In this document: positions 4,567 to 18,911 of the stretch, piece by piece
Layout of the letters: every line of letters begins with the position of its first letter
How positions within the stretch are numbered: the stretch's first letter is position 1
Assembly: GCF_000739085.1 (NCBI RefSeq)
Contig: NZ_CP009110.1
Location: 2,294,001-2,358,000, forward strand
Source of the DNA: Amycolatopsis methanolica 239
GTDB lineage: Bacteria; Actinomycetota; Actinomycetes; Mycobacteriales; Pseudonocardiaceae
DNA length: 64,000 nt
Direction: 5' to 3'
Translations under genes and position numbers: made by a program
Notes under the pieces: model-generated
Told to the model about the DNA's origin: nothing
Databases searched by the model: none
What the model saw: only the letters and a program-made list of their open reading frames with translations

Positions 4567-4601
4567 AAGAGGGGTGCGCCGCGACGCGCCGCACCCCTCT
4601 T
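4567..4601. terminator. Hairpin terminator between convergent genes
   Basis: A perfect 12-bp stem (AAGAGGGGTGCG, 4567-4578, pairing with 4590-4601) closes an 11-nt loop. It lies between the DivIVA-domain gene and the end of the HTH-STAND gene, so it can serve both strands. There is no long U-tract, as is common in actinobacteria. Confidence 0.75.
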
Positions 4602-4619
4602 CCTGTAACGGCGCGGAGG

Positions 4620-6815
4620 TCACGCCCCACGCACCCGCGCCTCGCCGAGGATGAGCGGGTCGAGGGCCGGATGTGCTTCGTCGGCCAGTTCCCACCATGC
4701 GACTGCCTGCTCCTCGTCACCGCGTGCCATGGCGATGTTGCCGAGACCGGTGTAGGCGCGCGCGGCCTCGTGGGGACTTCCGCAGGCCTCCGCCCGCGCG
4801 ACCGCTTCCTGGTAGGCGGCACCGGCGCGCGTGTGGTCGGCGAGGTGGAAGTACGCCCACCCCAGGCAGTTCAGGGTCATCGCGGCGTCGAAGCCGAGGT
4901 CGAGCCGGTCGAACACGTCGAGCGTGGCGGCGGCGAGCTCGGCCGCTTCGGCGGCCCGCCCCAGCGCGGTCAGGACCAGCGCCATGCCGCGGCGGGTGAT
5001 AGCGGCATTGCGTGAGTTGCCCACCCGTTCGTAGAACTTCAGGGCCTCGCGCAGGTCCGCGAGTGCTCCCCGGTGATCTCCCAGGTAGTGCCTGGCCCAC
5101 GCCTGGTGGGCGAGCACGGTGCTCTCCCCGTGTTCGTCGCCGATCTCGCGGTAGAGCGCCAGCGCCTCCCGGTAGCACTCCGACGCGCCCCGGATGTCAC
5201 CGCGGTCGATCAGGCCGACCCCGAGGTTCGCGGTGGTGGCAGCCTGGGCCCATTGGTCACCGGCCGCCTCCGCGGCGGCGCGGGCGGCGCGGTGCGTGTC
5301 GCACCAGGTGTCCCAGGCCTTGATCCGGAAGAAGTAGTTTCGCAGGAAGTACGCGAGCTGCCAGCACCGCGCGTGGTGACCGTCTTCCCCGGCCGCGCGG
5401 CACAGCGTGGCGAGGGCGCGCCATTCGAGCCGAAACCAGTCCAGCGCCTGTTGTTCCGTCGCCGGATCCGCGGGCGCGGGTGCGTCACCGGCCATCTCGA
5501 CGGTGGGCCGGAACCGCAGCGGCGCGATGAGGCGATCGGCGAGTTGCGCGGTCCGGACCGCGAAGTCGAGCAAGCGCCGCTGAGCCTGTGCCACGTCCGG
5601 CCGGTCGAGAGTGGCGAGGATGTGCTCTCGGGCGAAGGACTTCACCAGGTCGTGGAACGCGTAGCGGCCCGCGGACGGCTGGCTGAGGAGGTGGGCGTCG
5701 TAGAGGCGATCGAGCAGCCGGTCGGTCTCGTGGTCCTCGTGGCCGCCGAGCGCGCTCGCCGATCCGAGGTCGAATTCGAGTCCGGGGTGCAGGGCCAGCA
5801 GGCCGAGCAGCCGGGCTTCGTCGGCGGGAAGGTGCTGTGCCGACAGTTCGAACACCGCGCGCACACTGCGTTCGCCGTCGTCGAGCTCGCGCAGGCGGGC
5901 GTTCGCGTCGGCGAGCCTGCGATCCAGTTCCCGCACGTCCCACGCCGGACGCGTACGCAGCCGCGCGGCGGCGATGCGCACGGCCAGCGGCAGATGTCCG
6001 CAGCGGCTCACGATCCGCGTCACCGCGTCACCGGGCCCGCAGCGGGCGAGCGAGGAGAAGAGCTCTGCCGCGGCGGCGGGGGACAACACGTCCAGCGGAA
6101 CCTGCGCCGCCTCGTCCAGCGGGGCGAGCCGGGACCGGCTGGTGATCAGCACCCGGCATTTCGGCTCGGCCGGCAGCAGGGGCCTGACCTGAGCAGAGCT
6201 CACCGCGTTGTCCAGGACGAGGAGGACACTGCGGCCCCGCAGCCCGGCGCGGTACAGGGTGGCGCGGTCGTCCGGGGCGGCCGGGATCGTTTCGGGCGGC
6301 ACACCGAGGGCCCGGAGCAGGCGGTCGTGCACCTCGGGGGGCTCCGCCGCCCTTCCGCCGGGCCCGCGGAGGTCGACGAACAGGCAGCCGTCGGCGAACG
6401 AGGCCTCGAACCGGTGCGCGCACCGCACCGCGAGTTCCGTCTTGCCGACACCGGCCAGGCCCGAGATCACGCACACGCCGCCGTCGGCCTCCAGCGCCTC
6501 GCGCACCCTGGAAAGTTCCTCGTCCCGGCCGACGAAGGTGCTCACCGCAGGCGGCAGGCCCGAGGGACGAGGCTCGGGCCGGGTGCGGCGCCGAGGGGCC
6601 GCCGCACCGGGCAGCAGCGGGGTCAGCGCTCCCGGCGCGCCGAGTTCGGCCTCGCACAGCGCGGCGAGCGAGGGATTCGGGGCGGTCCGGCCGGTTTCGA
6701 CCTTGCTGAGGTAGCCCTTGCTGTAATGCACGCGGTCCGCGAGTTCGGTCAGCGAGATTCCCGCCGCTCGGCGGAGCCTGCGCAATTCGGCGCCGAATGT
6801 CGCTCGCTCGGTCAT
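4620..6815 (-). CDS. HTH (XRE)-STAND ATPase-TPR regulator
   Basis: This 731-aa protein has an XRE-type helix-turn-helix (residues ~8-60, ELRRLRRAAGISLTELADRV...YLSKVETG). It is followed by an NB-ARC/STAND ATPase: Walker A GLAGVGKTE at ~119-127, Walker B SVLLVLDN at ~196-203, and the RNBS-B-like ITSRSR. A C-terminal half of TPR-like helical repeats (~440-730) completes it. Such proteins are signal-gated switches: ligand binding to the repeats allows ATP-driven assembly, and the HTH implies DNA binding. The start is ATG 6815, preceded by GGTGGAG; an upstream in-frame GTG would add 43 poorly conserved residues. Two tiny membrane-peptide genes lie immediately upstream on the same strand. Confidence 0.85.
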   Translation of the reverse strand: MTERATFGAELRRLRRAAGISLTELADRVHYSKGYLSKVETGRTAPNPSLAALCEAELGAPGALTPLLPGAAAPRRRTRPEPRPSGLPPAVSTFVGRDEELSRVREALEADGGVCVISGLAGVGKTELAVRCAHRFEASFADGCLFVDLRGPGGRAAEPPEVHDRLLRALGVPPETIPAAPDDRATLYRAGLRGRSVLLVLDNAVSSAQVRPLLPAEPKCRVLITSRSRLAPLDEAAQVPLDVLSPAAAAELFSSLARCGPGDAVTRIVSRCGHLPLAVRIAAARLRTRPAWDVRELDRRLADANARLRELDDGERSVRAVFELSAQHLPADEARLLGLLALHPGLEFDLGSASALGGHEDHETDRLLDRLYDAHLLSQPSAGRYAFHDLVKSFAREHILATLDRPDVAQAQRRLLDFAVRTAQLADRLIAPLRFRPTVEMAGDAPAPADPATEQQALDWFRLEWRALATLCRAAGEDGHHARCWQLAYFLRNYFFRIKAWDTWCDTHRAARAAAEAAGDQWAQAATTANLGVGLIDRGDIRGASECYREALALYREIGDEHGESTVLAHQAWARHYLGDHRGALADLREALKFYERVGNSRNAAITRRGMALVLTALGRAAEAAELAAATLDVFDRLDLGFDAAMTLNCLGWAYFHLADHTRAGAAYQEAVARAEACGSPHEAARAYTGLGNIAMARGDEEQAVAWWELADEAHPALDPLILGEARVRGA

Positions 6816-6951
6816 CAGGCTCCACCCTTGTCGGACGATCAGTATGGCCCGGCGGAGGCGCCGCGCACAGCGTCCGCCCGGGTGGCCGGCCGGGTCCGCG
6901 GACCCGGCCGGCAGCTGCGCGCACAGCCGGTCTTCACGCCACATCGGGGCC

Positions 6952-7008
6952 TCAGCCGAAGACGATGGTCAGCAGGGTCACGATCAGTTCGACGGCGTGG
7001 GTCTGCAT
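6952..7008 (-). CDS. 18-aa hydrophobic peptide
   Basis: ATG 7008 is preceded by a very strong ribosome-binding site (GGAGGAGGT, ~6 nt away) and encodes MQTHAVELIVTLLTIVFG, then TGA. Most of it is one short hydrophobic stretch. It overlaps the end of the 60-codon gene in another frame by 25 nt and lies 136 nt before the HTH-STAND gene on the same strand. It could be a signal peptide ligand, a small membrane toxin or a regulator subunit. Expression is credible from the ribosome-binding site; the function is unknown. Confidence 0.5.
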   Translation of the reverse strand: MQTHAVELIVTLLTIVFG

Positions 7009-7166
7009 TGCGGTACCTCCTCCCCGGCCTCGCCGACCACGGAGACCGGGTGGCTCACGGGCGCCGCCGCGGGCCGGTGTCCCAGCGAGACGCCCAGCAC
7101 GACGGCCAGCACCGTCAACCAGAAGGCGATTCGCAGGAGCAGCGAAAACGAGCAGACGACTTTCAT
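6984..7166 (-). CDS. 60-aa single-pass membrane or secreted peptide
   Basis: The gene starts at ATG 7166 with AAAGGAG 6 nt upstream. The N-terminal ~30 residues form a hydrophobic helix (SLLLRIAFWLTVLAVVLGV) after a short basic end. The rest is polar and Pro-rich (HRPAAAPVSHPVS...CRPTPSN). It could be a signal anchor or a precursor whose C-terminal part is exported. It is the first gene of a probable three-gene unit with the 18-aa peptide and the HTH-STAND-TPR protein. I recognise no family. Confidence 0.5.
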   Translation of the reverse strand: MKVVCSFSLLLRIAFWLTVLAVVLGVSLGHRPAAAPVSHPVSVVGEAGEEVPQCRPTPSN

Positions 7167-7428
7167 TTTCGTCTCCTTTTGCGGGACGTGCCGGGGCGGC
7201 ACTCGAGAACACGGGAATTCCGTGGTTCGAAGGGTTTTCCGCGGATTTCCGGCGGCTCACCAAGAATGCGATTCCCGGGGTGCGCCCGACAAGGAGTTTC
7301 CTGTTTCCGGCTCCGGTGGGAAACGGAAACCGGGCGGTGACGATCGCGCGGTCCGTCGCGCCGCTGCTGGACAAGGCGCGCAGGGGTGGCCAGGATGTGG
7401 AATCGCGCCGGAAACTGCGGGAGGACGG

Positions 7429-8391
7429 GTGAGCGTCAGCACGACGGACGTGGCTGCGGAGCTGAAGATTCTGCGAAAGGGGCGAGGGGTGTCCGCGAAC
7501 CGGCTGGTGGAACGCGTCGGACCGGCATTGCACGCGGTGTGCGGCATTTCCGCCGCGGACAATGCCGCGGTCATCCGGCAGAAGGTGTCAGACCGGTTGG
7601 GGGCGCTCATCGAGGCGCTGCCGGACGACCTGCGGACGTCGCTGCTGGCCGCGTTCGGGTTGCACGAGCAGGCGCAGCACCCCTTCTACCAGGAACGCGT
7701 GCACTGGGCCGCGCAGACGCTGGACCGGGACGCCCGCACGGTCCGGCGGCGCATCGACGAGGGCATCGACCGGCTCGCCGAACTCGCGGTGGCCGGCGCC
7801 GAGCCCGCGGAGGCGCCGGCACCCAGCCGGAGCTGGCACACCGAGGAGCTCCGCGTGGCGCTCGCGCTCGACCAGCCGGTGCCGGAGGCGTTCGAGTTCC
7901 GGCGAGTGGTCGTCGACGCGGACGAGATCGACGAGCTGGACCTGGCGCTGACCCTGACCTCGGCGGGGCCGAACAGCACGCCACTGCAGGAGACGGACCT
8001 GCAGGTCGACGTGTTCTACGGTGGTGTGCTGACCGGGCGGCGCATGGAGTCGAGCGACCGGATCGGTCTCGCGCTCCGGCCGCCCGGCCGCCTCCGGCGC
8101 GGCGATCGGCACGACATCGCGCTGCGGTTCCGCGCGGGCTTGCGCCAGCCCCACTACGTGTGCGTGCCGCGGCACCCCTGCGACCTGTTCGACCTGCACA
8201 TCCGCTTCGCCCGGCCGTTGCCGGCCGAGGTCGTGCGACTGGACAAGGCGTTCCAGGACGACGCCCGCGACCACTCCGCTCGCGGCACGCCGATCGAGCC
8301 CGACGAGGCCGGCGAGGTCCACGAGCAGTTCCGCCACCTGGTACCCGGGTTCGCCTACGGCGTGCGCTGGCGCCCCGCCGCCGGGGGCTGA
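7429..8391 (+). CDS. Conserved actinobacterial protein of unknown function
   Basis: This 320-aa protein starts at GTG 7429 with GGGAGGA upstream. The first ~130 residues look like an all-helical regulatory module (ELKILRKGRGVSANRLVERVG...DARTVRRRIDEG) of a kind often seen at the head of actinomycete regulators. Residues ~150-315 are beta-rich and contain a CVPRHPCDLFDLHIRF segment. There is no signal peptide or membrane helix. It is divergent from the tiny membrane peptides and convergent with the TIR-STAND gene, whose stop is 6 bp away. I do not recognise the function. Its setting suggests a component or target of the island. Confidence 0.7.
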   Translation: MSVSTTDVAAELKILRKGRGVSANRLVERVGPALHAVCGISAADNAAVIRQKVSDRLGALIEALPDDLRTSLLAAFGLHEQAQHPFYQERVHWAAQTLDRDARTVRRRIDEGIDRLAELAVAGAEPAEAPAPSRSWHTEELRVALALDQPVPEAFEFRRVVVDADEIDELDLALTLTSAGPNSTPLQETDLQVDVFYGGVLTGRRMESSDRIGLALRPPGRLRRGDRHDIALRFRAGLRQPHYVCVPRHPCDLFDLHIRFARPLPAEVVRLDKAFQDDARDHSARGTPIEPDEAGEVHEQFRHLVPGFAYGVRWRPAAGG

Positions 8392-8397
8392 CCGGGT

Positions 8398-11022
8398 TCA
8401 CGGTGTCCGTACCGTGGCCCGCGCCGCACTGGCCTTTGCGGACAGTGCGCGAGGCGCTCGGAAGGTGCGGCGCACGTCGGCGGCCGCCTCGTCGACGATC
8501 CTGGTGGCGCGGTTCCGCGACGCGGGGTCCGCCAAGGCAAGTGCCATGCCGAGGTCGAGGCGGGTCGCCAGGGTCTCGGGGTGCCGCAAGCCGAGAACCC
8601 TCGCCTGTCCGGCGACGATGTCGTCCAGAACCCGGGCCTGACGGCCGAAGTCGCCCAGCCGCCCGTGGCTCGAGGCGATCGCGTGGCGAACCCGGTACCG
8701 CAGCGGGTTGTCGTCACCGAACTCGCCGAGGAGGACCGTTTCGGTTCCGGACAGGACTTCGAGCGCCTCCTGCACGCGCCCGGCGGCGGTCAGCGCGCGA
8801 GCCACCGGCACCGACGCGGCCAGGGTCAGCGGGCTGCGGGCGCCCTCCTGCTCGCGGTACTTCGCCGTGAGGTCCCACAGCACGGCCGGCTCGTCCGGTG
8901 TGTGCAGGTGCTCCATGTCCAGCGCCAGCGCCGCGTCCGCCCACAGCAGCATCGCTTCGGCGTGACCGCTGTGGTGGTGGCGGCCCCGTCGTCGGTACGC
9001 GCCGGCCACGTCGGCCGCCAGGTCACGGGCGGGACGGAAGCTGCCCATCAGGAGCAGGTTCCGCGCGTGCTCGAGTTCCATCGCCGCCGTGCGGTCGGCG
9101 TCCGCGGGGAGCCCGTGCGCCCCGTCGAACAACGGCAGGGCGCGGTCCGGGCGGCCCCGGAACCGCCGGGCCCTGGCGAGCGCCGTGATCGCGCGGAGCC
9201 GCAGCTCCGGCCGGCGCGGCCACCGGATCGCGTCGTGCCGCCAGAACACCTCGTCCGCCGCGGCGTAGTCACCCTGGCAGTCCAGGGCCTCGGCGGCGGT
9301 CAGGCCGGCTTCGTACCGGACCGTCTCGTCGGTGGCGGCCGCCACCGCGTGCCGAGCGTGCCGGACCGCCTGGGCGTACAGGCCGCAGTCGATCTCCACG
9401 CGGGCGGCGTCGGCGTAGTCGGCGGCGGTGGCGTTGCCTGCCAGGATGGCGGCCCGCACTTCGCCCGCCGCCGCGTGATCTCCGAGGGTGGAGTAGGCGG
9501 CTGCGACGGGACGCAACAGGGCCGCCCTGGGCCCGGTCGCCCGCTCCGCGAGTGCCCTGGCGTGCTGGAGCAGCAGTACCCGATGCCGGGGGTCGTCCGC
9601 CAGCAGGCGAAGTGTGGTGCCGGTGACTCTGGCGTCAGGTTCGGCGTGCGGGAACGCGCTGCGGGCGACTTCGAGAACCAGTGTGTGCAGCCGGATGCAG
9701 CCGGGGGCGGGCCGGGCGAGGCCGCGTGCCACGAGTTCACCGGCCGCCGCGGTCACGGCGTCAGTGGACAGTCCGAGCGCTTCGGCGGCGAAGCCGGTGG
9801 GGATCGGGACCGGAGCGAGCACGGTGCCCAGCAGCACGAGCTTCCGCGCGACCGCCGGAAGCTCGCTGATCAGGTCGAGGATCGCCTGCGGAGCGGTGCT
9901 CGGCCGTGCCGCCAGCACTTCCGCGTCGAGCGTGTCCGGCCTGCTGCGGAGGAGGTGGGCGTTGGCGCGGATCGCGAAGGGGTGCCCGTCGCAGCGTTCG
10001 ACCAGACCGCGGACGGCATCACGCTCGTCCTCGCGCAGCGGGCGGATGCCGTCGAACAGGCGGAGTCCGTCCGATGGCGGCAGGCCGGCGAGGCCGATCG
10101 CCGGGGCGGGCCAGGCCGGCTGCGCCACGCGTGCCGTCACCAGGGTCGCCACCTGCGCTGTGGGCAGCACGATCTGGTCCAGGACGGCGGGCGGCAACCC
10201 GGCGGGGACGTCGTCGACGAGCACCAAAGTGGGCTCGTCGATCCGTTCGGCGGCGAGCCGTCGCAGCTGGGGGAGCGTGAGCCCGGTCGTGTCCACCGCG
10301 AGCCGCCGGGACAGCGCGGCCGACAGGGTGAGGTGGAACAGCGACAGGAAGTCCGCCGGATCGAGGTGACCGAACGGTCCGGTGCGGACGGTCCCACCGG
10401 GGTAGGCGCCCCGGAAGAGCGTCGCGTACCGCCCGGCCGTTGCGGTCTTGCCTGATCCGGGCGCCCCGCAGATCACCGCGGCCGGTGCGGCCGGCGCCCC
10501 GCCGACGGCGAACCTGGCGCCGCAGAGGGCTTTGTGGATGCTCCAGAACACCTCGTGGCGGCCTGCGAACTGATCGGTCACGGGGCTTTCCACGGGCCAT
10601 CGTTCCCGCACCATCTCGGCCAGTTCGGCCGCGCTCCCGGGCATGGGGACGACGCACTGGGCGAGTTCCGCCGGAACCAGGTGCGCGACGTCCCGATCCG
10701 CCGACAGCGCCAGCACCCGGCTCGAGCCGCCACCGGACGCGGCCAGGAAGGTCGTGATCAGCGCCCACTGGCGGGGCCCGCTCAACGGCCGCGACCGCGA
10801 ATGCACGGCGAGCAACAGGTGAGCGCCCGCCAGCGCTTCCGCGGTCGCGGCGGTGACGACGTCGGGACCGTCCGGATCGTCGTCGAACCGCACGGTCAAC
10901 CCGTGCTCGCGCAACTCGCGCTCGAGCCCGCCCGCCCCGGCGACGGCGTGGGGGAAGGTCAGGAAGACGTCGCAGCGGGGCGGGACCCTCGGGCGCCGCA
11001 CTGACTTATCCGGGAGAACCAC
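8398..11022 (-). CDS. TIR-STAND ATPase-TPR protein with an atypical TIR domain
   Basis: This 874-aa protein has a TIR-like domain (residues ~17-125: CDVFLTFPHA, LTVRFDDDPD, AHLLLAVHSRSRPLSG). A STAND ATPase follows (Walker A CGAPGSGKTA at ~185-194, Walker B LVLVDDV at ~266-272, then LVTARV). The C-terminal half is TPR-like (~440-850). TIR-STAND proteins in bacteria sense infection or internal signals and oligomerise. In NAD-cleaving TIR domains a Trp-Cys-X-X-Glu element supplies the catalytic Glu. Here the matching stretch is WALITTF, with no Glu, so this TIR may only act in assembly. The start is uncertain: GTG 11022 lacks a clear ribosome-binding site, and a later GTG near 10999 is possible. 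It is divergent from the sigma-factor gene. Confidence 0.85.
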   Translation of the reverse strand: MVLPDKSVRRPRVPPRCDVFLTFPHAVAGAGGLERELREHGLTVRFDDDPDGPDVVTAATAEALAGAHLLLAVHSRSRPLSGPRQWALITTFLAASGGGSSRVLALSADRDVAHLVPAELAQCVVPMPGSAAELAEMVRERWPVESPVTDQFAGRHEVFWSIHKALCGARFAVGGAPAAPAAVICGAPGSGKTATAGRYATLFRGAYPGGTVRTGPFGHLDPADFLSLFHLTLSAALSRRLAVDTTGLTLPQLRRLAAERIDEPTLVLVDDVPAGLPPAVLDQIVLPTAQVATLVTARVAQPAWPAPAIGLAGLPPSDGLRLFDGIRPLREDERDAVRGLVERCDGHPFAIRANAHLLRSRPDTLDAEVLAARPSTAPQAILDLISELPAVARKLVLLGTVLAPVPIPTGFAAEALGLSTDAVTAAAGELVARGLARPAPGCIRLHTLVLEVARSAFPHAEPDARVTGTTLRLLADDPRHRVLLLQHARALAERATGPRAALLRPVAAAYSTLGDHAAAGEVRAAILAGNATAADYADAARVEIDCGLYAQAVRHARHAVAAATDETVRYEAGLTAAEALDCQGDYAAADEVFWRHDAIRWPRRPELRLRAITALARARRFRGRPDRALPLFDGAHGLPADADRTAAMELEHARNLLLMGSFRPARDLAADVAGAYRRRGRHHHSGHAEAMLLWADAALALDMEHLHTPDEPAVLWDLTAKYREQEGARSPLTLAASVPVARALTAAGRVQEALEVLSGTETVLLGEFGDDNPLRYRVRHAIASSHGRLGDFGRQARVLDDIVAGQARVLGLRHPETLATRLDLGMALALADPASRNRATRIVDEAAADVRRTFRAPRALSAKASAARATVRTP

Positions 11023-11209
11023 GGCGCTGGGATCGGCATCCGCGGCCCGTCCGCTACACCTTTCCGGAAGTGTCCGGTAATTGACCTGTCCCGCCGCGGC
11101 CGGTCAGCCGCCGAACGGACAAATCCAGGACAACAACCGCGCCACCGCAACGGCGAACCGCGCCACCCCGATCAACCGGGTACCCGTCCTCGTTACCAGG
11201 GAGACAGAG

Positions 11210-11284
11210 ATGGACATCGCCAGTGGTACCGCGGCTGGCCCGGGAAGCGGACTCGCCGTGGCGTCGTGGTGGGCCGAGCCGTGA
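11210..11284 (+). CDS. 24-codon leader ORF coupled to the ECF sigma factor
   Basis: ATG 11210 has AGGGAGA just upstream. The ORF encodes a 24-residue peptide (MDIASGTAAGPGSG...WWAEP). Its TGA overlaps the GTG start of the sigma-factor gene (GTGA at 11281-11284). The sigma factor has no good ribosome-binding site of its own, so its translation probably depends on ribosomes finishing this leader. The two adjacent Trp codons near the end could make coupling sensitive to amino-acid supply; that part is speculation. Confidence 0.5.
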   Translation: MDIASGTAAGPGSGLAVASWWAEP

Positions 11285-11964
11285 CCGCCAGTGTTTCGCC
11301 GCCGGTGACCGCCGTCGATCCGCCGCCGTCCGGCCCCACCGGGGAGTACGCGGTTCTCGCGGATCTCCCGAGGCCGGAGGGGCGGCTCGAAAAGGACGTG
11401 CTCGACCCGGTAGTCGCGGCCGCCCGGCGGGGCGACGAACGCGCGGTTCACACGTTGATGACACTCGTCAAACCGGTGGTGGCCCGGTACTGCCGGGCGC
11501 GGATGGGCGGCCGTGACCTGTCCTACCTCTCCGCCGACGACGTCGCGCAGGAGGTGTGCCTGGCCGTCGTGAAAGCGCTGCCCGGCTACGAGGACCGGGG
11601 CGGCTCGTTCCTGTTCCTGGTGCGGGCGATCGCGGCGAACAAGGTGGCCGACGCCTACCGCCTGGTGTCGCGCGACCGTTCGGAGCCGGTGGCGCAGCTG
11701 CCGGAAGACGGGACGGTCTGGCGCGACCCCGAGGAGCACGTGCTCACCCTCGACCTCGGACGACGTCTGAACGGCCTGCTGGCGCAACTCCCGCCGGCGC
11801 AGCGGGAGGTCCTGGGCCTGCGCGTCGTCGCCGGGTTGTCCACGGCCGAGACCGCCCAGTCGATGGGCATCACGCCCGGCAACGTCCGGATCAGCCAGCA
11901 CCGCGCGCTGACGAGGTTGCGGCGGATGATCGCGGAGGAGTCCGGTCAGGAGCGGAGCCGGTGA
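11281..11964 (+). CDS. ECF sigma factor, SigD-like
   Basis: This 227-aa protein has sigma-70 region 2 at ~45-115 (VARYCRARMGG...SADDVAQEVCLAVVKALPGYEDRGGSFL, AANKVADAYR). Region 4 is at ~165-215 (LPPAQREVLGLRVVAGLSTAETAQSMGITPGNVRISQHRAL). The wording closely matches the SigD/ShbA group of actinobacterial ECF factors, which normally act in core physiology. No anti-sigma gene adjoins it. GTG 11281 is chosen because of the GTGA overlap with the leader; GTG 11266 is an alternative. The gene is divergent from the TIR-STAND gene, and its 3' end overlaps the convergent SEFIR gene by 19 bp. It may drive expression of the island. Confidence 0.88.
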   Translation: MTASVSPPVTAVDPPPSGPTGEYAVLADLPRPEGRLEKDVLDPVVAAARRGDERAVHTLMTLVKPVVARYCRARMGGRDLSYLSADDVAQEVCLAVVKALPGYEDRGGSFLFLVRAIAANKVADAYRLVSRDRSEPVAQLPEDGTVWRDPEEHVLTLDLGRRLNGLLAQLPPAQREVLGLRVVAGLSTAETAQSMGITPGNVRISQHRALTRLRRMIAEESGQERSR

Positions 11965-13127
11965 ACGAGCCGGGCGACCAGCTCGTCGGCGATGTCGTGA
12001 GCCGACGAGCGCAGGTCCGCAACGGCCAGCGCCTCCTCCGCATCCACGCGAACCCGGTCGTGCCCGTGCACGGTGACCGAGTTGCGCGAGGGTTCGTCCA
12101 GCCGTCCGAGGTAGACCAACATGGCGTGGTCGAGTCCGATCGCCGGAGCCAGGTCGCGCGGCAGCGGGACGTCGACGCGGAGGAGTAGGTCGAGGATGTC
12201 CGCGAGCCGGCCGGTCAGGTCGTTCTCGTCGAGCACCGAGCCGATCGACCTCGCCGGCAAGCCGAACCAGCACGACCGCTGACCGTCCCGGTGCACGGCC
12301 AGCCCTGCGTCGCCGTCACGGGTGCAGGCCCAGGCGAGTTCGTCCGAGAAGCCGGTGTCCAGAGCCTGGGCGTGCGTGAACAGGTCCCGGGCGCGACCGG
12401 TGCCGGCCAGCTCATCGGCGAGCTGCTGGAGCCGTCGGATCCTGAGCCGGTCGCCGTCTTCGACGGGAGCGAGGTGCAGTTCGACCGTGGCCCGCTGCGG
12501 GCGGTAGCGGCCGAGGAGATCCGCTACCCAGACCACCGTTGCGGGCCGGGCGAGCCGCCGCCACTGTGGTGACCGACCGGCCGGAACCGCGCCGGGACCC
12601 GATTTCGGTGGCAGGACAACAGGCGGGCCAAGGGGCGGGCGGACGTGTTCGGGTTGCCTGGTCAGCGTGCGGAGGAGGTACTCCACGCCTCCGGGGGAGC
12701 TGACGTCGTAGCGGTCCACGTTGTACGGCTGCAGGAAGAGCGGGATCTCGTCGATGCGGTGCCCGGGCAGGATCACGGGCAGGACCTTCCTGGTCCATTT
12801 TTCCCGGTCCTCCGAGAGCAGGTCCCGCAGCAGCGCCGCTTCGGCCTGGACGCCGCGGTGGCGGTCGGCGGGCCCGAGGCCGTCGCCCATCTCGCGGTAG
12901 ACCTTGGACGCCACGACGAGCACGAAGTCGGCGCTCAGGATGTGCTCCGTGGCCCAGGCCTGCCAGTCGCGGCGGTCGGTGTCCGCCCAGCTGTCGATGT
13001 CCGCGTCGATGCCCTGTGCGCGCAAGGAGGCAGCGAATTCGCGCACCGTCGCGCGGTGCTGTTCGTCGTCATGCGCGTAGGAAATGAAGACGGTCACGGT
13101 CGAACCCACCGGGAAACGATAGAGCAC
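11946..13127 (-). CDS. SEFIR-domain protein
   Basis: This 393-aa protein carries an N-terminal SEFIR domain (residues ~10-165: VTVFISYAHDDEQH, GIDADIDSWADTDRRDWQAW, ADFVLVVASKVYRE, then RGVQAEAALLRDLL). SEFIR domains are TIR relatives that mediate homotypic contacts, and some bacterial ones take part in phage defence with NAD loss. The C-terminal ~200 residues (from RRLARPATVVWVADLL) are unassigned. They contain alternating helical and strand segments and end in ELVARLVHRLRS. The start is GTG 13127; shorter GTG starts exist. The gene is divergent from the SEFIR-kinase gene, its clear paralogue in the SEFIR part, so the two probably share a promoter region (13128-13241). Confidence 0.82.
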   Translation of the reverse strand: MLYRFPVGSTVTVFISYAHDDEQHRATVREFAASLRAQGIDADIDSWADTDRRDWQAWATEHILSADFVLVVASKVYREMGDGLGPADRHRGVQAEAALLRDLLSEDREKWTRKVLPVILPGHRIDEIPLFLQPYNVDRYDVSSPGGVEYLLRTLTRQPEHVRPPLGPPVVLPPKSGPGAVPAGRSPQWRRLARPATVVWVADLLGRYRPQRATVELHLAPVEDGDRLRIRRLQQLADELAGTGRARDLFTHAQALDTGFSDELAWACTRDGDAGLAVHRDGQRSCWFGLPARSIGSVLDENDLTGRLADILDLLLRVDVPLPRDLAPAIGLDHAMLVYLGRLDEPSRNSVTVHGHDRVRVDAEEALAVADLRSSAHDIADELVARLVHRLRS

Positions 13128-13241
13128 CGTTCCCGGGGCGGTCCGGAAGTCGCGCTGGACAAATAGTGGACAGCTTGCCCATTCGCCTGCGCGGGCGGCG
13201 TTTCCCGTGAGAACGTACGGGCGGTCGGGATCCGGGAAAGG

Positions 13242-14687
13242 ATGGCCAACGTGCGGAATCCGGGTACCGTCGGTATTTCACCGCGGGTGTACGTCTCCTA
13301 CACGCGGGATTCGCCGGAACACGTCAGGTCGGTGCGGGAGTTCGCGGCATTCCTGCGCACCGGGCTGGGTGTGGATGCCGAACACGACGAGTGGCACGCC
13401 ACCGAGCGCCGCGACTGGATCGCGTGGACCGTCGACCAGTTGCGGACAGCCGAGTTCGTGCTGGCCATCGCCTCGCCGGAGTACAAGCGCGTGGCCGACG
13501 GCGGGCGGCAGCGCACCGAGGGGCGCACGCGTGAGCTCGAAGCGGCGATGCTCCGCGACAACCTCGCCCGCAACATCCCGGAGTCGACCCGGCGAGTGCT
13601 GCCTGTCGTCCTGCCGGGCGGCCGTCCCGAGGACATCCCGGACTGCCTGTGCCCGTCGTCCCAGGGCTACTACACGATCCCGCGATTCACCCGCGACGCA
13701 GCCGAGGACCTCCTGCGCGTCCTGAGCGGCGCGCCGCTGCACGAGAAGCCCCCGCTCGGGACGTTCACCCCTCCCATGCCCGGTGTCGACCCGGTCGTCG
13801 TGGTGCACCGCGCCGCGGCTCCGCCGACCGACCGGGTCCTGGCCGTGGGAGCGGTCGTCGACCTCGGCGGGGTTCGACGGCTCGTGGACGGGCAGCACTG
13901 GTCGGAACACCCGAACCGGGACCACGCGGCCGTCTGCCGCCAGGCACGGGCCTCGGCGTTGCCGCCGGACGACGGCAGCGCCTGGCTCCGGCAGGTGGAG
14001 GTGCGGCAGCCGACGGGAGCGGCGGACGCGGCCGTCGCCGCACTGGCCCGGGAGCACGAAATCCTGACCGCGCTGGACGGCCGGGCGCCGGAACTGCCGC
14101 GGCCTCTGGGTTTCTTCCGCGACGGTCACCTCGCGACACTCGCCACCCGCTGGCCGTCGTCGCGGAGCCTCGGCGGTCCGGGCGAGACGCTCGCCACCGA
14201 CATCCCGGCGGTCGGCGAGACCGTCGACCCGTGGCGGATGCGGCAGGTGCTGCGGGGCGTAGCCGGGCTCTGCGGCGCGCTCGCCGCGCTGCACGCTGCC
14301 GGTGCCGCGCACCGGAACCTGACGCCGGAGCGAATCGTGCGGCTCGACGACGGCCGTCTGGCGCTCGTCGACCTCGGCCTCGCCGCCTCCGCGCCGGCGC
14401 CGGGGGAAGGACCCGGCCGGTACCGGGCGCCCGAGCAGCGCCGCGGGAGCTCCCGGCGCACCGGCGCCGCCACCGACGTCTACCAGGTGGCGGCCGTGAC
14501 CCACCACCTGCTCACCGGAACCCCGCCCAGCCCGGCGGTGGCGTTGCCGATCCGGGTCCGGGTGCCCGCGCTGCCGGACGGTGTGGCCGAGGTCCTGGAC
14601 GCCGCGCTGGCGGCCGACCCGGCCGCCCGCCCCGCGCTGAGCGCACTGATCCCGGCTCTCTCGAACCTCCCCGCCATCCCCGCCTGA
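13242..14687 (+). CDS. SEFIR-pseudokinase fusion
   Basis: This 481-aa protein joins a SEFIR domain (residues ~13-165: RVYVSYTRDSPEH, GVDAEHDEWHATERRDWIAW, AEFVLAIASPEYKR) to a protein-kinase-like fold (~205-470). In the kinase part the catalytic loop reads HRNLTPERIV instead of HRDxKPxN. The metal-binding DFG is DLG, and the beta-3 lysine position appears as Arg in VEVRQP. The catalytic Asp is therefore replaced by Asn, which predicts a pseudokinase or a very weak kinase. YRAPEQR and DVYQVAAVTHHLLTG match later kinase motifs. ATG 13242 lies very close to AAAGGA; GTG 13251 has better spacing and may be the true start. It leads a three-gene unit with the helicase and the last island gene. Confidence 0.85.
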   Translation: MANVRNPGTVGISPRVYVSYTRDSPEHVRSVREFAAFLRTGLGVDAEHDEWHATERRDWIAWTVDQLRTAEFVLAIASPEYKRVADGGRQRTEGRTRELEAAMLRDNLARNIPESTRRVLPVVLPGGRPEDIPDCLCPSSQGYYTIPRFTRDAAEDLLRVLSGAPLHEKPPLGTFTPPMPGVDPVVVVHRAAAPPTDRVLAVGAVVDLGGVRRLVDGQHWSEHPNRDHAAVCRQARASALPPDDGSAWLRQVEVRQPTGAADAAVAALAREHEILTALDGRAPELPRPLGFFRDGHLATLATRWPSSRSLGGPGETLATDIPAVGETVDPWRMRQVLRGVAGLCGALAALHAAGAAHRNLTPERIVRLDDGRLALVDLGLAASAPAPGEGPGRYRAPEQRRGSSRRTGAATDVYQVAAVTHHLLTGTPPSPAVALPIRVRVPALPDGVAEVLDAALAADPAARPALSALIPALSNLPAIPA

Positions 14688-14698
14688 GGACCCGCCCG

Positions 14699-17650
14699 TT
14701 GTTCCGCACAGTCGAACTCCCCACGCCCGCCGTCCTCGTGCCCGCCAGGGAGCTGCACACCAAGCTGGCCAGGACCGGCCGTGACCACCCCGGTCTGCCG
14801 AGCGGACTCGATCAGGTGCTGCGGGACCTGGCCGTCCGCCAGGAGGGCGTGCCCGTGACCGTCGCCGAACCGAGCCGCCCTGGTAGTGACCGGAGCCTGC
14901 GGCTGCACACCTACGGCTACGTGGTCACCCTGTTCCCCACCCGCAACAGGGACGGTTACCTGGTCGTGGGGATCGATCCGCTCCGGATGCGCGACCACGA
15001 CCGCCTCGCGGACGGGCACCTCCTGGTCCGCACCAAATGGCGGGCGGTGTTCGAGCTGCCGCAGATCCCGCCCGGCAGCAGCGCCTACTGGCCCCGGCTC
15101 AACGGGGAATGGGATGCGCTGGTGCGGGCGCGTGGAGACCGGCGACAGGCCCCGGACATCTCTCCGGCCCACGAACGGTTCCTCGACACGCTCGACGAGC
15201 TCGTCGAAACCACGCGCCGGTTCGCCGCGCGCGACGACGACTCGCTGGCGAGGTACCCGTACCGCTCGGCCGATCCGGTGGGGGAGCGGCGCTTCAGCGG
15301 CGCGCCGGTCTACGTGTTCCGGATCGCCGGGGACCGGATGCCGGAGCGCGGACGGCTCGTCCGGCTCCGTGGCGAGCCGGAACAACGCGGGGAAGTGGTC
15401 CGGGTCCAGGACGACCTGGTGACCGTGCGGTTCGACCAGCCGCTCGACTGGAACCGGCTGGCGCCGCAGGGCGAGCTCCAGGACCGGCCCAACGAGGTCG
15501 TCTACGCCAAGCAGCGCGAAGCCGTCGCCCTCCTGCGGTCGCGGAAGGCACACAACCGCAACCTGATGTCCGTCTTCGTCGACCACGACGCGCGGCCGTT
15601 GACGGCGGTGTCCGCCGAGCCGGCGGAGACCCTCGACGCCGACCAGCTCGCCGCGTTCCGGGCCGCGCTCGGGGTCCGCGACGTGCTGGCCGTGCTGGGC
15701 CCGCCCGGCACCGGCAAGACGCGCACGATCAGCGAGATCGCCAGGGCTCGTGCCCTGTCGCCGGACCGCGGCCGCACGCTCATCGCGTCGTTCACGAACC
15801 GGGCGGTGGACAACGTCCTGGCCAAGCTGCCCCGGGACGTGGTCGTGGTCCGCGTCGGCAGCGAGGGCAAGGTCGACGCGGAGGGCCGCGCGTTCCTGCT
15901 GGAACACCTGGCCGCCGAGCTGCGTGCCGAGATCATCGCCACCACGGCGGTCGCGCGGCAGGGTTACGAAGGTGTGCCTGCGGCGCAGGAGTGGGCCGGC
16001 GAGTTCGGCCGGCGAATCGCCGCCTTGCGGGAGGACCTGGCGGCGGAGGCCCGCGCCGGGCAGGCACTGGATGCGGCTCGCCGGTCTGTGGGCGGGCCGG
16101 CTCAACAGCGGGTGGACGACCTCGCCCGCGCTCTCGGCGACCGGGAACGCGCGGCCGCGCAACGCGCCGACCGGCTCCGGAGCCTGCTCGAACGCCAGGA
16201 GCGTGCGCGGCGACGCGGGTCGTGGAGCGGGCGCTGGGCCGCGTGGATGGCGCGGCGGCGGAGCGACCGCGCCGACCGGCTGCGGGCGGACTTGGCGGCC
16301 CGCGGCCAGGAAGCCGCCGTGCTGCGCGGCCGCCTGCACGAGGCCGCCGCCGCGCTCGACCTGGCCACCCGGGACGCGCCCCAGGTGATCGCGGCGGCCG
16401 GTGTACTCGACCAGGCGGTGTCGGCACGCCGCCGGCGGGCGGCCGAGGCCGGTCAGGCGCTCGACGCGATCCGGGCGGCGCTCGGGCCCGTCCACGCCGT
16501 GCCGGTTCCGCCGGACACCGGCGATCCCGCTGCCTTGCTGGCCGCGCTGACCGACGTCCACGTCGGGCTCGGGCCCTGGCTGGCGTGCCTCACCACCCGC
16601 GCCCGGCTGCTCGACGAGTGGCGGACCGCGGTGTCCGGGGCGACCGAGCAGCTGTACCCGGAGCTGGTCCGGTACGCCGACGTGGTCGGCGCCACCTGCA
16701 CCGGAGCCGCGTCCCGTCCGGAGATCGCCGGGGAGACCTTCGATCTGGCGATCATCGACGAGGCCGGTCAGATCGGCACGGCGGACGTGCTGGTCCCCCT
16801 GGTCCGGGCCGACCGCGCGGTCCTGGTCGGCGATCACCGCCAGCTTCCCCCGATCGTCGGCAGCGACGTGCTGGCGTGGGCGGAGGAGACCGGCGACCCC
16901 GCGGTCCGGGATCTCGTGACCAAGAGCGCACTGGAGATCCTGGTGGAGCGGCACGCGCTGCCGCCGAGCCACCTGGTGGCGCTGACCCAGCAGCGGCGGA
17001 TGCCGAAGGTGATCGCCGACTTCGCCTCCGCGGCCTTCTATGGCGGGCGGCTGACCACGCACGTCGAGCGCGTGCACAACGACCCGCTGTTCACCGGCTC
17101 GCTGGTCTTCGCCGACACCTCGCAGCTGCCGGTGCGCGACCGGTCGGAAACGCCCGTGCGGCGCGGTGCGACGCGCGGGACGGTCAACCACGCGGAGGCC
17201 CGGCTGCTGGCCCGGCTCGCCGCCTTCTACCACCGGCTCGGCGCGGACTGGGCGCTGATCGTGCCCTACCGGGCGCAGCGACGGCTGATCGCCCAGCTCC
17301 TCACCGAGGACATCCCGGACCTGGATGCGGTGGATCACCACGTGGGCACCGTCGACGCCTTCCAGGGCGGCGAGCGTGACGTGGTCCTCTACGGGTTCAC
17401 CCGCAGCAACCGCGCCGGCGAAGTGGGGTTCCTGGACGAGCTCCGGCGGGCCAACGTCGCGTTCACCCGCGCCCGGCGGCAGCTGGTGCTCGTCGGCGAC
17501 ATGGACATGTTGTGCCGGGCACGGGACCGCGGGTTCCGCGACCTGGCCCACCTCCTGCGTGCGCATGTGCTCGCCCACGGCGAGGTGCGGCACCACCGGG
17601 AGCTCATGACCGTGCTGGAGCAGCGGGAAGCGGGAGCGGAACTGGCATGA
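14699..17650 (+). CDS. Large superfamily 1 (Dna2/Nam7-like) helicase
   Basis: This ~983-aa protein has a UvrD/AAA_11-AAA_12 type motor. Motif I is GPPGTGKTRT at ~334-343 and motif Ia includes ASFTNRAVDNVL. Motif II (Walker B) is LAIIDEAGQI at ~682-691 and motif III VGDHRQLPPIV. The C-terminal motifs are VGTVDAFQGGERDVV and NVAFTRARRQLVLVGD at ~882-935. A long Arg/Ala-rich coiled-coil insertion lies between motifs Ia and II (~440-600). The N-terminal ~320 residues hold a beta-barrel-like region. Such Upf1/Dna2-type helicases recur in antiviral operons. The start is TTG 14699, spaced 8 nt from TGAGGA, 11 nt after the kinase stop. The stop overlaps the next gene (ATGA). Confidence 0.88.
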   Translation: MFRTVELPTPAVLVPARELHTKLARTGRDHPGLPSGLDQVLRDLAVRQEGVPVTVAEPSRPGSDRSLRLHTYGYVVTLFPTRNRDGYLVVGIDPLRMRDHDRLADGHLLVRTKWRAVFELPQIPPGSSAYWPRLNGEWDALVRARGDRRQAPDISPAHERFLDTLDELVETTRRFAARDDDSLARYPYRSADPVGERRFSGAPVYVFRIAGDRMPERGRLVRLRGEPEQRGEVVRVQDDLVTVRFDQPLDWNRLAPQGELQDRPNEVVYAKQREAVALLRSRKAHNRNLMSVFVDHDARPLTAVSAEPAETLDADQLAAFRAALGVRDVLAVLGPPGTGKTRTISEIARARALSPDRGRTLIASFTNRAVDNVLAKLPRDVVVVRVGSEGKVDAEGRAFLLEHLAAELRAEIIATTAVARQGYEGVPAAQEWAGEFGRRIAALREDLAAEARAGQALDAARRSVGGPAQQRVDDLARALGDRERAAAQRADRLRSLLERQERARRRGSWSGRWAAWMARRRSDRADRLRADLAARGQEAAVLRGRLHEAAAALDLATRDAPQVIAAAGVLDQAVSARRRRAAEAGQALDAIRAALGPVHAVPVPPDTGDPAALLAALTDVHVGLGPWLACLTTRARLLDEWRTAVSGATEQLYPELVRYADVVGATCTGAASRPEIAGETFDLAIIDEAGQIGTADVLVPLVRADRAVLVGDHRQLPPIVGSDVLAWAEETGDPAVRDLVTKSALEILVERHALPPSHLVALTQQRRMPKVIADFASAAFYGGRLTTHVERVHNDPLFTGSLVFADTSQLPVRDRSETPVRRGATRGTVNHAEARLLARLAAFYHRLGADWALIVPYRAQRRLIAQLLTEDIPDLDAVDHHVGTVDAFQGGERDVVLYGFTRSNRAGEVGFLDELRRANVAFTRARRQLVLVGDMDMLCRARDRGFRDLAHLLRAHVLAHGEVRHHRELMTVLEQREAGAELA

Positions 17651-18852
17651 CCGGCAGCGGAAAACCCTTGCTGTACCCCGAAGAGCGGGCGCTCGACGAC
17701 GCGGCGTGGGAACAGGGGCTCACCCCGTCGCGGATCTTCGCGATCCTGCTGCCGGTGTGGCAGGTCGAGGTGCGCGCCACCGTCACCGAGGGCAGGCCCT
17801 ACGAGCTCATCGACCGCTTCCTGGAGCGCGGGATCCTCGAGGGCGGGCTGACCTCGGTGGCCGAGCTGTCGCGGTTCTTCGCCCTGGACGAGCCCCTGGT
17901 CGACCGCGCCGTCCGGGTGCTGTCGGCCATCGGGCACGTCGCCGTCCGGGACGGCCGTCTCGCCCTCACGGAGCTGGCCCTGCGGTCGCAGCGGGACCAG
18001 ATCTGCTACGTGACCACGCGGGAGGACCGGCGCAAGATGTACTTCGACGCGTTCTCCTCACGGCCGTTCAGCCGCGGCTACTACGACGCAGGCACCGTCA
18101 CGTTCCTGACCGCGGACAAGGCCGCCGCGGCCACGGCCGCCCACCCGTACCCGCGGTTCCTGAAACTGACCAGCACGCACGGCTTCCGCCGGGACGCGCT
18201 GCGCGATCTCGAGGGCCGGTCGGACCGGGACCACTATAATCTGCCGTTCCGCGTCGAGCAGCCGGAGAGCCTCGGCGAGGAATGCGTGTACCTGCCGGTG
18301 TACCTGGTTCGCGCGGCCGATGCCCGGCGCGCGCCGCGCTACCTGGTCTACAGCCAGATCACCGACACCGCGGACCCGGAACTGAGCGACCTGTGCGGGT
18401 CGCTGCCCGAGATCACCGGGCTGGTGGAGTCGGAAACGCTCGCCGTCCAGCCGGGACGGCACGATCAGCGCATCTCCGACTGGCTGGCGGACAAGGGCGT
18501 CCATGGAGTCAGGGCGGTTCAGACCGAGCGCGGGTTCTGGCAGGTCACGCTCCCCGCGACGGCGTTCCGGCCGTCCGGCCGGGTGCCGCTGAGCCGGATC
18601 GGCTCGTTCGTGCCGCTGGGCACCGGCGTGCTGGGCGTGTGGTGCGAGGACGAGCGGATCCGGGAGGACGCGTTCCTGCGGCGGATCGACGCCTATGTCA
18701 CCGCCAGCCGGACGGACGTCGGCGACTGGGTGGTGCGCCTCGCGCGCCGGCTGGGCCTTGCCCTTGGGACCGTGGCCGAGGTCAGTGCGCTGGCGCGGCG
18801 CGCGGGGATGGGTTCGCTGGCGGCGGTTCTGGCCGAGCACGCCGGTTCCTGA
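17647..18852 (+). CDS. Unknown protein coupled to the helicase
   Basis: This 401-aa soluble protein has its ATG overlapping the helicase stop by 4 bp. Residues ~1-130 contain LTPSRIFAILLPVWQVEV, GRPYELIDRFLERGI and a winged-helix-like ELSRFFALDEPLVDRAVRVLSAIGHV, so DNA or protein binding by this part is plausible. The middle is rich in aromatic residues (KMYFDAFSSRPFSRGYYDAG). The C-terminus is helical. I recognise no named family. Strict coupling to an SF1 helicase suggests a dedicated partner such as a loader, substrate adaptor or effector. A strong hairpin follows. Confidence 0.75.
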   Translation: MTGSGKPLLYPEERALDDAAWEQGLTPSRIFAILLPVWQVEVRATVTEGRPYELIDRFLERGILEGGLTSVAELSRFFALDEPLVDRAVRVLSAIGHVAVRDGRLALTELALRSQRDQICYVTTREDRRKMYFDAFSSRPFSRGYYDAGTVTFLTADKAAAATAAHPYPRFLKLTSTHGFRRDALRDLEGRSDRDHYNLPFRVEQPESLGEECVYLPVYLVRAADARRAPRYLVYSQITDTADPELSDLCGSLPEITGLVESETLAVQPGRHDQRISDWLADKGVHGVRAVQTERGFWQVTLPATAFRPSGRVPLSRIGSFVPLGTGVLGVWCEDERIREDAFLRRIDAYVTASRTDVGDWVVRLARRLGLALGTVAEVSALARRAGMGSLAAVLAEHAGS

Positions 18853-18911
18853 GGTCGTCTCGAGTACATTGTGGACTCCGGAGTGCCCTGGGGTTGGCCG
18901 TCCCCCTTTTC

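Follow-up and report, generated by a model that had tools for sequence, protein, structure and literature searches.

The locus described here raises the question of whether a compact block of genes for STAND ATPases, SEFIR proteins, a pseudokinase, a sigma factor and a helicase constitutes one immune system, and what kind of system that would be. The block lies in a 64,000-nucleotide stretch of Amycolatopsis methanolica 239 (NZ_CP009110.1, positions 2,294,001 to 2,358,000; G+C content 72%), which we call the window and which belongs to a genome consisting of a single contig of 7.24 Mb. A reading made from the letters alone (the sequence-only reading) had listed two STAND proteins, two SEFIR proteins, a pseudokinase fusion, a sigma factor and an SF1 helicase with an overlapping partner, and family searches agree with this list. 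Going beyond it, homology indicates that the last three genes, F, G and H, are a derivative of the Mokosh defence system, with a variable domain at the N-terminus of F.

The genes occur from left to right in the order A, two tiny peptides, B, C, D, E, F, G and H. The probable starts of A (6815), B (7429), D (11305), F (13242), G (TTG at 14699) and H (ATG at 17647) were inferred from homologues, and G and H overlap in the sequence ATGA.

4603..18862, no strand: inserted island, with limits from comparison of occupied and empty sites
4620..6815, minus strand: A, HTH_31-NB-ARC-TPR STAND protein, 731 residues (family search)
6952..7008, minus strand: tiny peptide 2, 18 residues, hydrophobic, MQTH start, upstream of A (similar open reading frames, ORFs, in homologous loci)
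6984..7166, minus strand: tiny peptide 1, 60 residues, one hydrophobic stretch, AGGAG-type site ahead (similar ORFs in homologous loci)
7429..8391, plus strand: B, conserved protein, 320 residues, helical N-domain and β-sandwich (structure model)
8398..11001, minus strand: C, STAND-TPR protein, optional (P-loop and TPR; TIR-like start by eye only)
11210..11284, plus strand: 24-residue ORF, apparent remnant of the gene for a 144-residue membrane protein (likeness to loci L160–L162)
11305..11964, plus strand: D, ECF sigma factor, ShbA-family paralogue, optional (NCBIfam)
11946..13109, minus strand: E, SEFIR protein, 387 residues (Pfam, PADLOC)
13242..14687, plus strand: F, SEFIR-pseudokinase fusion, 481 residues, counterpart of the MkoA kinase part (Pfam, PADLOC)
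14699..17650, plus strand: G, SF1 (AAA_11/AAA_12) helicase, 983 residues from TTG, counterpart of the MkoA helicase part (Pfam, PADLOC)
17647..18852, plus strand: H, MkoB-like protein, 401 residues, winged-helix N-domain, no PLD nuclease detected (PADLOC, model)

Type I Mokosh is described, in the available text of PMC11672841, as a helicase, a serine/threonine kinase domain and a phospholipase D (PLD) nuclease, and the available part of PMC10952713 tabulates a PLD-like domain for it. When compared with the PADLOC models, residues 255–474 of F align to positions 42–275 of MkoA, which form its kinase part (54 bits), and residues 217–939 of G align to positions 529–1093 (338 bits), with AAA_11 and AAA_12 also identified by Pfam. 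H matches only the N-terminal domain of MkoB (model positions 7–137, 48 bits). A canonical type I pair was found by a search with the MkoB model in another actinobacterium (genome G489, locus L190). Its MkoA is 1155 residues long, with kinase and helicase fused and the HRD, AVK and DFG motifs intact; its MkoB is 470 residues long, with PLDc_2 at 30.2 bits. H aligns to this MkoB with an hhalign probability of 81% (E = 1.2e-5), in columns 25–153 only. On these alignments F-G-H derives from Mokosh of type I: F and G correspond to the two halves of MkoA, and H corresponds to the N-terminal domain of MkoB.

As in type I Mokosh, an SF1 helicase, a protein-kinase fold and the MkoB N-domain are found in adjacent genes; here, however, MkoA is split in two genes, the kinase catalytic residues are lost, a PLD nuclease is undetected, a SEFIR domain is added to the kinase, and there is a divergent SEFIR partner gene. 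Judged from sequence only, F in the window has lost the Asp, Lys and Asn of the catalytic loop and has its β3 Lys replaced, while the DFG Asp is retained. In a single alignment, which leaves out L051 and counts the duplicate pair L086/L148 twice, the catalytic Asp of HRD is lost in all 14 rows with SEFIR and in 22 of the 24 other split-F rows; the β3 Lys is lost in 13/14 and 24/24 rows respectively, and the DFG Asp is retained in 38/38. As a pseudokinase, F has probably lost the ability to transfer phosphate.

A PLD nuclease was sought in the window's H rather than in each relative, and gave no Pfam match (E up to 0.1 and 0.05) and none among the 50 Foldseek matches listed. The model of H (mean predicted local distance difference test score, pLDDT, 90.6) is similar to winged-helix proteins alone, the likeness spanning about 70 residues at E ≥ 0.034, and a PDB profile search with H gave a best E of 0.095. 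H was rejected as a full MkoB because no PLD was found. The MkoA helicase and an MkoB partner (N-domain only) are present, but we propose that the trio should not be filed under Mokosh type I, because an active helicase-fused Ser/Thr kinase (assessed by sequence alone) and a PLD nuclease were both tested for and neither was found.

The MkoB-model search covered 296 genomes and gave a match in 32, with both ends of the model matched only in G489. The other matches are probably other PLD enzymes: most fall in the PLD part, and an E. coli control also matches. In two loci (L191 and L192), proteins of about 500 residues match the MkoB N-domain and lie beside SF1 helicases that have no kinase match; the L191 protein also has a wHTH-PRTase_assc match in Pfam. 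These represent another possible Mokosh derivative.

The N-terminal slot of F holds different domains in different loci. We compared 38 distinct F-G-H loci, of which 15 are SEFIR-type and 23 are not (16 from the family Pseudonocardiaceae and seven from named contigs). The slot contains SEFIR in 15, a RHIM/BASS3-like stretch in 14, TIR in three (L139, L143 and L144; Pfam TIR_2, 34.9–48.1 bits), a DUF4145-like domain in two (L097 at 38.5 bits, and L091, its tree sister, with no Pfam match) and a nucleoside phosphorylase in one (L093, 78.8 bits); no domain was assigned in the remaining three (L068, L089 and L094). Most of these domains are known as effectors or homotypic adaptors. The main reason for reading F as a carrier of effectors or adaptors is that H has no PLD while output-type domains sit on the pseudokinase. 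The RHIM/BASS3-like calls were made by eye against the BASS3 peptide printed in PMC8086366, and a text pattern missed L141. Many non-SEFIR pseudokinases show a Q-x-G ... G-x-V stretch in this slot similar to that of BASS3 as given in the available part of that source, but the likeness is one seen by eye and not the published profile, and the stretch was not found in the window's F.

We then consider how widely these genes occur and whether they travel together. Full-length F is present in 13 of 297 genomes of the family, the source genome included, and additionally in G145, in two pieces. Counting every kinase or SEFIR match was rejected in favour of full-length F, since all 297 family genomes match at E ≤ 1e-3. 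A scan of genome contigs gave 44 loci, with SEFIR plus kinase in 10; nine of these repeated earlier finds, and L060 (Amycolatopsis xylanica) was new. H is found at E ≤ 1e-10 in 36/297 family genomes and, in a phylum sample, in one of 396, namely the source genome. The 36 comprise 14 with loci of the SEFIR type, 16 with F-G-H of other types, two that are incomplete (L138 and L142, which have H without full F-G-H) and four weak matches (G072, G152, G179 and G273). The incomplete and weak cases were left out of the counts, as were L095, L096, L098 and L100–L102, which have kinase-like matches without G and H, and L148, which duplicates L086. A search of 72,556 plasmid records gave no H, and for F only four partial SEFIR matches.

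In the SEFIR-type loci, G and H follow F in 15/15, E is divergent from F in 14/15, B is present in 13/15, and an A-like gene occupies the equivalent position, in the same orientation, in 12/15 (at 38–40% identity in L047–L049); D and C are found in five and four of the 15. Gene order and orientation persist even where F and H are only 36–40% identical, and the order is the same in different genera. The 23 non-SEFIR F-G-H loci contain neither B nor a divergent E (0/23 each); a SEFIR gene is near only one of them (L145), on the far side of H. Protein distances co-vary at r 0.94–0.97 among F, G and H, 0.91–0.95 for B with these three, 0.75–0.82 for E with them and 0.49–0.61 for A with the others (12–14 loci; at most 1 in 2000 permutations reached the value), the comparison for A taking in L044, whose A match sits off the island position. 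The co-conservation of SEFIR-kinase, helicase and 401-residue gene, with SEFIR paralogues adjoining, bears out the sequence-only reading of a defence-type block, and in the SEFIR-type loci F-G-H, E and B do not occur independently among unrelated neighbours. A single system needing the full set, as that reading had it, does not stand: C and D are mostly absent, and the left-hand genes and F-G-H each occur alone. In L044 the E gene is interrupted by a stop. In Saccharopolyspora subtropica (L051/L079), F, A and B are each in two frames while G and H are open, which represents either decay or sequencing error.

The island itself (4603–18862) is a discrete insertion of about 14 kb, as established by comparing occupied and empty sites in 19 genomes of the genus, the source genome included. 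Both flanks are present without the island in six (G162, G130, G175, G092, G113 and G146), and the island is present in three (the source genome, G064 and G187); in the other 10 the flanks were not found together and occupancy could not be called. The matched flanks are approximately 170–210 bp apart in all of the six except G146, where the match runs to 4602 and starts again at 18863, just beyond the stop codons of A and H. In G146 (L155) the flanks enclose about 1.6 kb with two other ORFs, which by eye look TetR-like and SDR-like; because they are unrelated to the island, the site may perhaps be an integration hot spot. Hairpins at the two ends (4567–4601 and 18890–18904) had been taken as a sign of a joint unit. 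Both recur in G146, where the island is absent; they therefore belong to the flanks and were rejected as a sign of joint function. A scan for sigma-70 promoters found none. Further to the right, the segment 21177–21281 has many copies in the source and related genomes, at about 80–97% identity, and resembles a dispersed repeat.

To the left of F-G-H is a second group of genes, here module 1, made up of A, the tiny peptides, B and a SEFIR gene, with C and D as optional members. It exists on its own: of 20 B-bearing loci fetched that lack F-G-H, four (L159–L162) combine B with A, peptide 1, C, D and a SEFIR gene, and C and D therefore belong to this module. L164 has A, peptide 1, B and D without F-G-H, and its SEFIR gene is 8 kb away. 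B is widespread, being found at E ≤ 1e-30 in 120/297 family genomes. In the model of B (mean pLDDT 83.7, predicted template-modelling score 0.56), a helical N-domain is joined to a β-sandwich resembling the N-terminal domain of M1 aminopeptidases, with the peptidase part absent. A peptidase role was rejected, the best PDB matches being this N-terminal β domain or similar folds with a TM-score of about 0.3; on its modelled fold, B probably has a binding or regulatory role and is not an enzyme.

The two tiny ORFs (6952–7166) overlap, are hydrophobic and conserved, have AGGAG-type sites and lie ahead of A on the same strand. Their earlier identification agrees with likenesses in homologous loci: among 11 loci examined, peptide 1 has similar ORFs in L039–L041, L043 and L050 and a shortened one in L042, and peptide 2 has them in L039–L043, L046 and L050 but was not seen in L047–L049. 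Peptide 1 occurs also in L159–L162 and L164, loci in which peptide 2 was not looked for. The peptides are candidate signal, leader or toxin peptides.

C was described previously as a TIR-TPR STAND protein. The P-loop and TPR parts stand, but the window copy has no TIR match; in a scan of four C rows, TIR_2 was found only in the L043 homologue (36.6 bits, cut-off 28). C has an internal stop in L040. For the FxSxx-COOH system, no FxSxx_TPR protein over the cut-off of 300 bits was found, A and C scoring 137.9 and 68.8 bits. D matches NCBIfam ShbA at 221.8 bits (cut-off 209); it was rejected as the sole housekeeping ShbA, as the source genome has four family members over the cut-off, of which D is the weakest. 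Ahead of D, the 24-residue ORF (11210–11284) matches the start of a 144-residue membrane protein that precedes the sigma gene and is full-length in L160–L162, and is possibly a decayed gene for a sigma-associated membrane protein.

Module-1-type SEFIR genes adjoin a gene for a KGGVGR (ParA-like) ATPase in L158, L160–L162, L164 and L045. In L158 this ATPase has TIR_2 and CATASP matches below cut-off, and a TIR gene and a HerA-like ATPase come next; similar ORFs were seen by eye in L164 and L045. The KGGVGR ATPase possibly represents another partner system of the SEFIR gene.

The SEFIR domains of E and F are identified by Pfam (43.8 and 44 bits) and by the PADLOC bSEFIR model (100.9 and 76.7 bits). 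A profile made from 12 E rows and F (A4) has matches both to bacterial SEFIR structures and to the SEFIR of human TRAF3IP2 (15-copy entry). The PADLOC bSEFIR defence shares this domain with E and F, but here a pair of SEFIR proteins, and not a single one, accompanies a helicase/pseudokinase trio; nor is the full-length single-gene architecture found, the matches spanning positions 38–195 of the 412 in the model and the neighbours being conserved. SEFIR is listed among NAD-cleaving defence domains in the available part of PMC12774641 (NAD, nicotinamide adenine dinucleotide). Glu90 of E is invariant in 12/12 aligned E rows and is a candidate catalytic residue; the equivalent Glu is retained in 7/12 F rows and replaced by G or T in L046–L050. 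Because of this difference, E is the likelier enzyme, with F as a probable adaptor in the L046–L050 clade.

We favour, with slightly better than even confidence, a reading of the island as an abortive-infection defence. G, together with the winged-helix MkoB remnant H, would recognise nucleic acid of an invader; F would act as a conformational relay bearing SEFIR; and the activated SEFIR of F would nucleate a SEFIR-SEFIR assembly with the divergently encoded E. E, perhaps with F, would then cleave NAD+, and its loss would lead to growth arrest or cell death. A with the two peptides, and B, would gate expression or activation, and C and D would be optional add-ons. That the helicase senses and the pseudokinase relays we infer from homology and architecture, and any anti-phage effect would likewise be a prediction. 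A broader generalization, which we regard as possible but put forward tentatively, is that the trio typifies a nuclease-less Mokosh family, in which helicase, MkoB remnant and pseudokinase may form a general sensor chassis with a death domain (SEFIR, TIR, nucleoside phosphorylase, DUF4145-like or RHIM-like amyloid adaptor) plugged into the pseudokinase. The SEFIR branch would be wired into a second immune module of NB-ARC protein, peptides, B and SEFIR protein, giving the SEFIR-SEFIR relay.

Several observations weigh against this defence reading. In a helicase tree of 40 rows all 15 SEFIR rows fall in a single clade (100/100), and another clade holds the three TIR rows; the SEFIR loci therefore share descent and are not independent tests, and Fisher test values overstate the association. 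Module 1, found without F-G-H, may have a job of its own. In L045 neither E nor B adjoins F-G-H, and the SEFIR genes lie 6 and 8 kb away; L060 has E without B and A; and L138 (G065) has A-, B- and C-like genes, SEFIR genes and H with no match to F or G, so that the presence of H close to module 1 does not require SEFIR-F. The length of sequence covered differs among the loci; in L091 and L089 it reaches just 0.8 and 3.1 kb upstream of F, and the absence of B there is weak. The kinase catalytic Asp is retained in L089 and L139, and no Foldseek match of H falls below E 0.034. When Glu90 is compared with the TIR catalytic Glu, the SEFIR-TIR profile alignment has a probability of only 1.2%. Finally, F could itself be the effector, because most F SEFIRs keep the Glu. 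The SEFIR of F would then be toxic in cis, and E would serve as inhibitor, decoy or amplifier instead of doing the killing, in keeping with the TIR- and phosphorylase-fused relatives of F, which have no E alongside. We consider it unlikely: F has lost the Glu in L046–L050 whereas every aligned E row keeps it, and E is retained in all but one of the SEFIR loci.

It could also be supposed that module 1 and the Mokosh-derived trio are unrelated systems that merely cluster in a defence island. Each is also found separately, C and D are optional, and A co-diverges only moderately with the other genes, but the position of E beside SEFIR-bearing F, the co-divergence of B with F, G and H, and an order kept across genera make mere clustering quite improbable. 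Another alternative is that the block is a cassette regulating development or secondary metabolism and does not serve defence, which would accommodate an AfsR-like A and a ShbA-like D. The match of A to the AfsR model (329 bits) is below the cut-off of 1430, while that of D is over its own; the patchy spread of H, the empty sites in the genus, and the TIR and phosphorylase domains on relatives of F make such a role very doubtful.

The abortive-infection reading has partial precedents. The NTP-dependent conflict systems (eLife 2020, PMC7159879) similarly contain STAND NTPases with TIR-type and other exchangeable effectors, but SEFIR and pseudokinase are absent from the available text of that paper, in which no Mokosh-type trio was found. 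No account of Mokosh fused to SEFIR or TIR came up in the open-access papers searched, a literature that omits most subscription journals, and this is weak evidence of novelty.

The island links Mokosh, SEFIR/TIR NAD-type effectors and pseudokinases, which are usually listed apart. If our reading is correct, the Mokosh helicase would be a sensor that works without its nuclease, and defence systems would be able to swap the output domain and keep the sensor. Bacteria would possess a two-protein SEFIR relay, with a logic comparable to IL-17 receptor/Act1 signalling. The existence of natural SEFIR, TIR, phosphorylase and RHIM-like versions on one putative chassis makes the split between sensor and effector directly testable.

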